Origin: a bacterium
GTDB taxonomy: Bacteria > Thermosulfidibacterota > Thermosulfidibacteria > Thermosulfidibacterales > Thermosulfidibacteraceae
DNA length: 26,731 nt
Assembly: GCA_027022065.1 (NCBI GenBank)
Contig: JALVZS010000124.1
Span: 1-26,731, forward strand
Reading direction: 5' to 3'
Each line of letters starts with the position of its first letter. The first letter of the stretch is position 1. Shown here piece by piece: positions 1 through 281 of the stretch. The position numbers were made by a program, and so were the translations under genes. A model generated the notes under the pieces. The model was not told where the DNA came from, made no database searches, and was given only the letters and a program-made list of their open reading frames with translations.

Positions 1-146
1 AGGGCCTCAGCAGATCCGTGCAGGTGCTACAGAGGGGGGCAACGCCTACGGATATTGCTCACCTTGCGGCAATCGGTGTTGTTGAGGCACAGTATCTTGA
101 AAACAAAGGAGACCTTTATAAGGAAGAAGAACAGAGGATTCCTTGA
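1..146 (+). CDS. 3' end of an unrecognised protein gene (partial)
   Basis: The reading frame that begins at base 3 is open from the window edge to the TGA at 144-146 and gives the last 47 residues of a protein. The visible tail contains VQVLQRGATPTDIAHLAAIG followed by a charged end (YKEEEQRIP). It looks like a soluble alpha-helical C-terminus. I do not recognise the family and assign no function. It is transcribed in the same direction as panB, but a promoter-like TTGACA overlaps its stop codon and a structured leader separates it from panB, so it is probably not part of the panB operon. Confidence 0.6.
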   Translation, partial: GLSRSVQVLQRGATPTDIAHLAAIGVVEAQYLENKGDLYKEEEQRIP

Positions 147-171
147 CAATAACGCTTTAGTTTAATAATTA
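143..171 (+). promoter_or_regulatory. Candidate promoter of the panB operon
   Basis: A perfect TTGACA lies at 143-148, overlapping the stop of the upstream gene. An AT-rich stretch follows (161-171, TTTAATAATTA). With a 17-bp spacer the -10 would be 166-171 (TAATTA), which is a poor match; TAATAA at 163-168 has a shorter, 14-bp spacer. The position fits a transcript starting near 175, just before the leader hairpin at 181. The -35 is convincing and the -10 is not. Confidence 0.4.
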
Positions 172-180
172 GTTAAGTAG

Positions 181-216
181 GCCGCTTGGATCCCTGATTC
201 TGGGGACCGAGACGGC
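181..216 (+). ncRNA. pan RNA motif-like leader hairpin (putative riboswitch aptamer)
   Basis: Bases 181-216 fold into one long hairpin. GCCG (181-184) pairs with CGGC (213-216), CTTGG (185-189) with CCGAG (207-211, one G-T wobble), and TCCC (191-194) with GGGA (203-206), closing a loop of about 6-8 nt. This leaves exactly two single bulged residues, A190 on the 5' side and A212 on the 3' side. The published pan motif, found upstream of pantothenate genes, is described as a stem-loop with two conserved bulged A residues. Here it sits about 65 nt before panB. Its ligand is not known to me. The call rests on manual folding and gene context, not on a covariance-model search. Confidence 0.7.
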
Positions 217-251
217 AGGGGAGGAAAACTAAGGCCCTTCCGGCTCGGTCC
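204..251 (+). promoter_or_regulatory. Mutually exclusive antiterminator pairing in the panB leader
   Basis: GGACCGAG at 204-211 is a perfect reverse complement of CTCGGTCC at 244-251. The first copy lies in the 3' strand of the pan-like hairpin. The second covers the terminator loop (244-249) plus the first two bases of the 3' terminator arm. The 8-bp pairing would compete with the upstream hairpin and disturb terminator closure, as in transcription attenuators. It could instead be a loop pseudoknot. Confidence 0.55.
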
Positions 252-266
252 GGAAGGGCCTTTTTT
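231..266 (+). terminator. Rho-independent terminator / attenuator before panB
   Basis: A perfect 13-bp stem is visible: AAGGCCCTTCCGG at 231-243 pairs with CCGGAAGGGCCTT at 250-262. The loop is 6 nt (CTCGGT) and the T run covers 261-266. It ends only about 15 bases before the panB start codon and lies downstream of the pan-like hairpin, so it is best read as a regulated attenuator rather than merely the terminator of the upstream gene. Confidence 0.85.
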
Positions 267-281
267 AATAGGGGGTGGCTT

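Follow-up and report, generated by a model that had tools for sequence, protein, structure and literature searches.

Which kind of RNA precedes the pantothenate operon panBCD in this member of the Thermosulfidibacteraceae, and could a leader with a single hairpin switch the operon? Our analysis concerns a stretch of 26,731 nt (hereafter the window), in which the panB leader occupies positions 143-281. According to our main reading, which we hold with a probability of roughly 0.75, a single-hairpin pan RNA controls panBCD by transcription attenuation: the free hairpin would be displaced, resulting in read-through, and a hairpin held by a factor would result in termination. The argument makes use of the following features:

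143-148, + strand: candidate -35 box TTGACA, at conserved spacing to the hairpin
164-171, + strand: candidate -10 region, weak, from sequence and position; either AATAAT at 164-169 (15-nt spacer) or TAATTA at 166-171 (17-nt spacer)
181-216, + strand: pan hairpin of the 3' type with 14 bp, loop 196-201 and bulges A190 and A212, from model matches and covariation
204-220, + strand: 5' half of the putative antiterminator, i.e. the hairpin 3' strand and its 3' flank, with AGGG at 217-220 as toehold
231-266, + strand: intrinsic terminator, 13-bp stem 231-243/250-262 with U tail 261-266, -25.8 kcal/mol
235-251, + strand: 3' half of the putative antiterminator, i.e. the terminator 5' arm, the loop and the top of the 3' arm, including CUCGGUCC at 244-251
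271-278, + strand: candidate panB ribosome-binding site GGGGGTGG, predicted from sequence
282-1079, + strand: panB, ketopantoate hydroxymethyltransferase (PF02548, E 2.2e-126)
1089-1943, + strand: panC, pantoate-beta-alanine ligase (PF02569, E 4.6e-118)
1940-2338, + strand: panD, aspartate decarboxylase (PF02261, E 4.2e-51)

RNA folding yields exactly two single-nucleotide bulges in 181-216, namely A190 and A212. The original prediction had drawn the hairpin with these two residues bulged, and all of its letters and coordinates check out. The leader (143-270) folds more stably than 200 out of 200 dinucleotide shuffles (z -3.3). The Rfam pan model (RF01749) matches at 143-219 with 32.5 bits (E 6e-4 to 0.0011); the scan proposed with the original prediction does deliver a match, but one that is formally under the gathering cutoff of 36.2 bits. 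Accordingly, a scan of the whole window at gathering cutoffs returned zero matches, and the pan locus surfaced in a sub-threshold scan. The low score is explained by the fact that RF01749 describes the tandem form, since the alignment of the window has deletions where the first hairpin should be. The 36.2 bits mark where a model derived from tandems calls a match and are not a biological feature; the order-level relatives G002, G004 and G007 exceed it. A model of the 3' hairpin only, built from 60 sequences without this lineage (mostly Bacillota, some Chloroflexi), matches at 182-215 with 36.8 bits (E 7.8e-10 in the window, 4.7e-8 genome-wide), and a hairpin model search of the whole genome found no significant second copy. 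In an alignment of 26 distinct stems, both bulged As are invariant columns, and six of the eight pairs show compensatory changes (28 two-sided cells against 8.8 in shuffled alignments, 0/500). Covariation is thus present in the relatives' leaders, whose alignment had been suggested along with the prediction. PyrR and other weak Rfam matches at the locus lie far under their own cutoffs and were dismissed.

The segment 181-216 is a pan hairpin, in single form rather than the usual tandem, and the RNA of the window is an additional member of the already known pan family; its useful part is the platform that it shares with this family. With RF01749 (Weinberg et al. 2010, PMC2864571) it has in common the two conserved bulged As, the consensus CCGCUUGGAuCC..GGACCGAGACGG, and the location upstream of panB, panC and panD. 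It differs by its single hairpin, by its sub-cutoff score and by a probable promoter in place of the first tandem hairpin. Furthermore, the upper stem is longer in the clade, with hairpins of -15 to -20 kcal/mol versus mostly -8 to -14 kcal/mol elsewhere, and the lineage of the window apparently falls beyond the three groups named in 2010, or on their margin.

Most pan RNAs are arranged in tandem (Weinberg et al. 2010, PMC2864571); single forms are therefore already a known minority, and the arrangement is a feature of most, not all, members rather than a defining one. In the window it is absent: neither a model of the first-type hairpin (R2) nor a structural descriptor covering the 95 nt upstream detected a first hairpin. 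In a set of 386 genomes, the bulk of which sample the whole domain, hairpin model R1 matches in 72. Thirty loci were retrieved by means of the hairpin model, about seven of them being the clade itself, and in 29 panB follows directly downstream on the same strand. R2 matches neither the clade nor the majority of the remaining single-hairpin loci; this model alone understates tandems, and the first hairpins of Chloroflexi were caught by the structural descriptor instead. As far as these sequences show, single pan hairpins upstream of panB are common outside Bacillota. Of 398 genomes in the phylum to which G059 belongs, taken to be Bacillota from the content of its members, 152 have a pan match.

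Some loci deviate from this picture. Ten other Rfam-matched loci, inspected singly, lie upstream of panB, except for one that precedes a PanE-like gene. The second pan RNA of the genome G059 (L016, 1501-1625) stands upstream of an ORF for a PanE-like ketopantoate reductase, not panB. G070 contains two 3'-type pan hairpins in succession (L006, 1501-1530 and 1580-1613), unlike the usual tandem of a first-type and a second-type hairpin. In L006, L008 and L013, the upstream gene extends with its 3' end into the hairpin 5' strand (CCG CTT GGA TCC, i.e. ..PLGS before the stop), hence the pan RNA is partly coding there.

What stands ahead of the window's hairpin is most likely promoter DNA and not RNA, judging from sequence and spacing, though Rfam aligned 143-180 to the first part of its model. 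The original prediction had likewise counted 143-180 in the RNA motif; the TTGACA at 143-148 and the AATAAT at 164-169 argue for the promoter instead. TTGAC[AT] is found 36-43 nt ahead of the hairpin at 17 of 51 loci, where 0.25 are expected, and ahead of the hairpin in six of the seven clade members; within the window, the 27-nt promoter pattern is rare. Several Chloroflexi leaders that do have a first hairpin carry TTGACA at -85 to -92, ahead of that hairpin. Because 143-180 resembles a promoter, the transcript probably starts near 176, just ahead of the hairpin. The upstream gene (1-146 of the window) ends at 146, within the candidate -35 box. Its counterpart in G002 (L211, 3-1481) encodes, as judged by eye, a malic enzyme/phosphotransacetylase-type protein.

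Downstream, the Pfam assignments confirm panB, panC and panD, and together with the model matches and the covariation they bear out the prediction of a pan hairpin upstream of panBCD. This position is characteristic of the family and is shared by the order-level relatives. The folding also agrees with the 13-bp terminator with T tail that had been placed at 231-266 before panB; as expected of an attenuator, a U-tailed terminator precedes the panB start codon. The presence of a type III pantothenate kinase (CoaX) was considered as a reason for control by an RNA and rejected: it scores above cutoff in six of nine clade genomes, not in the genome of the window.

A dual complementarity underlies the proposed switch. 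Judged by base complementarity, 204-216 together with 217-220 can pair either with the hairpin 5' strand or with 235-251, the two pairings being mutually exclusive and conserved in relatives. The original prediction named an antiterminator of 8 nt, with 204-211 perfectly complementary to 244-251. This complement is real, but it is only part of the longer pairing; as sole antiterminator it would cover mainly the terminator loop and open just two of the 13 terminator pairs, and it was rejected in this role. The full pairing occupies 235-243, nearly the whole terminator 5' arm. It joins 15 of 17 positions (mismatches A212xG243 and C216xU239), a level reached by none of 20000 shuffles of 221-262 and by no other + strand site in the window. 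Within it, GGACCGAGACGG (204-215) has an 11/12 complement at 240-251, and 0.03 such matches are expected in the whole window.

As had been proposed, the competing structures were folded against each other, and they turn out to be two mutually exclusive folds of comparable stability. As a duplex alone, the 15-bp antiterminator amounts to -26.1 kcal/mol versus -22.6 for the pan hairpin. For the 176-251 transcript, the pan fold reaches -30.6 kcal/mol, and the antiterminator fold -29.4 (forced) or -27.0 kcal/mol (hairpin 5' strand blocked), so that at the decision point the two folds are within 1-4 kcal/mol of each other. A path estimate puts the barrier from pan to antiterminator at about 5 kcal/mol. 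The predicted branch-migration profile is near-flat, from -26.7 kcal/mol, when the four toehold pairs (AGGG 217-220 with CCCU 235-238) have formed beside the intact hairpin, over -19.8 to -25.7 kcal/mol; on paper, this is a profile of toehold-mediated strand displacement. Once 252-262 have been made, the minimum free energy structure of the full leader is hairpin plus terminator, favored by about 10 kcal/mol; hence, the choice must fall during transcription.

Eight MAGs from the same order are most closely related to the genome of the window. Seven genomes, including that of the window, provide a complete panB leader, and two other panB contigs are truncated there. All seven complete leaders show hairpin and terminator before panB, and six of them retain the long pairing, with -23.6 to -28.6 kcal/mol and each value matched by at most 1% of shuffles. 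G-U variants of the pairing occur in G005 and G006 (GGACCGGG with CUCGGUCC) as well as in G004 (GGACCGAG with CUCGGUCU). The exception is G002 (genus g2), whose terminator is a different, replaced one: it offers an 8-bp complement to GGGGACCG with -11.4 to -12.5 kcal/mol and a shuffle fraction of 0.17-0.195, which is not significant. As long as the terminator is incomplete, stability clearly favors the pan fold over the antiterminator in most clade leaders; in the window and in G003, the two states are near balance or reversed.

Does the pairing extend to the pan family as a whole? We sampled 102 leaders family-wide, clade included, and located the hairpin 3' strand in 100 of them; in 92 of these, a terminator of at most -8 kcal/mol follows within 150 nt. 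The duplex that the hairpin 3' strand forms with the terminator 5' arm averages -15.2 kcal/mol, versus -9.8 for shuffled terminators. When terminators are swapped between leaders, the mean is -13.0 kcal/mol, and the best of 200 swaps reaches -13.7. Individually, the pairing has p<=0.05 in 52 of the 92 leaders, where relatedness inflates such shuffle tests. Among 38 terminators from outside the clade, most of them not from Bacillota, 18 show an individually significant pairing; about half of the non-clade terminators do not. A motif CCUUYYG is common to the terminator 5' arms over dozens of genera. For the seven-pair core of the antiterminator, a gap-free alignment of 77 distinct leaders contains 34 two-sided cells versus 19.2 when shuffled (0/500), and slide 0 gives the highest scores for pairing and for covariation, though it does not lead in each single count. 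The clearest covarying switch is CAGAGGG with CCUUCUG versus CGGAAGG with CCUUYCG; two of the seven pairs show one-sided variation. By this comparison of sequences, many pan RNAs elsewhere, but not all of them, have the pairing too, and it shows covariation. L206 and L221 have a pan hairpin upstream of panB and no U-tailed terminator within 220 nt, which suggests that they use another output mechanism. The tandem partner, i.e. the first hairpin, varies freely (103 compensatory cells, 99.7% paired). The double use of one strand may explain why the 3' hairpin is strongly conserved while its tandem partner varies.

A match to the pan model, formally sub-cutoff, has thus been found together with covariation in relatives and a pairing kept in six of the seven clade leaders and in many pan RNAs elsewhere, which speaks for the predicted switch, off with a stable and on with an opened hairpin; the sensor, the polarity and the action in vivo we infer. 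The proposed course of events would be as follows. When the terminator 5' arm emerges, its CCCU (235-238) would first pair with the AGGG toehold (217-220); the pan hairpin would then be unzipped into the antiterminator by branch migration, allowing read-through into panBCD. A factor, either a protein or a metabolite signalling sufficient pantothenate or CoA, would hold the bulged-A hairpin and block branch migration; the terminator would then form and panBCD would be off.

As to the nature of this factor, a protein, possibly a pathway enzyme, rather than an RNA-bound metabolite is slightly the better guess, and it is compatible with the attenuation model. The published suggestion is a dimeric RNA-binding protein, in view of the small simple stem with two bulged As and its usual occurrence in tandem (Weinberg 2010, PMC2864571); the hairpin would also leave scant room for a metabolite pocket. 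However, one hairpin suffices here and in many lineages, which means that tandem binding is not required, and our analysis identified no candidate protein.

The polarity is the weaker part of the model, because thermodynamics favors the hairpin in most clade members. With the pan fold more stable there, the default state would be off if kinetics are ignored. In an opposite scheme, hairpin and terminator form by default, and a factor made at pantothenate shortage opens the hairpin or holds the antiterminator. The pan hairpin is transcribed first, and the stability of most clade leaders as well as the minimum free energy structure of the full leader agree with this scheme. We nevertheless regard it as unlikely: the strand-displacement barrier is low, the states are near balance or reversed in the window and in G003, and the invariance of the bulged As suggests a binding site that belongs to the hairpin rather than to the antiterminator. 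A plain leader, in which a leaky terminator follows a stable 5' hairpin without switching and G+C-rich repeats happen to create the complementarity, might be argued from a locus known from MAG sequence alone and from the non-significant pairing in G002, but is highly improbable given the shuffle test in the window, the register-specific covariation, the terminator swap test and the spread of CCUUYYG, which terminators as such do not need.

Returning to attenuation by displacement of the free hairpin, we find a close parallel in Bacillota riboswitches, for example of the purine or SAM-I type, where one strand serves both the sensor and an antiterminator, and the latter competes against an intrinsic terminator ahead of the operon. 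The window has the same shared-strand arrangement; its sensor, in contrast, is one small bulged hairpin without a multi-helix junction, and its antiterminator employs the most conserved strand of the hairpin. In the PyrR-binding leader (RF00515), a protein binds a small hairpin, and a terminator comes next, ahead of a biosynthesis operon. The overlapping match to this model is weak (28.1 bits, cutoff 54), and sequence and gene context differ; the resemblance is an analogy, not kinship. In open-access main texts we found neither a known ligand nor a described attenuation mechanism or pairing for pan RNAs, although the supplements of Weinberg 2010 may mention a terminator; nor did we find, in the open-access literature, a demonstration of ligand or protein binding or of pantothenate regulation for the family.

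For the family at large, we lean, by a narrow degree, towards regarding pan RNAs as toehold-exchange attenuators, in which the hairpin 3' strand and the unpaired 3' tail would be conserved for pairing with the terminator, and in which the single hairpin, under-called by the tandem model of Rfam, would be a complete sensor. The single-hairpin form removes the assumption that two hairpins are required. In a one-hairpin leader of about 100 nt, terminated versus full-length RNA would provide a direct read-out for testing metabolites or proteins on an RNA that has been a regulatory orphan since 2010. The comparative result predicts mutations that would lock pan leaders on or off in tractable Bacillota, and the mechanism hypothesis may be applicable to much of the pan family.
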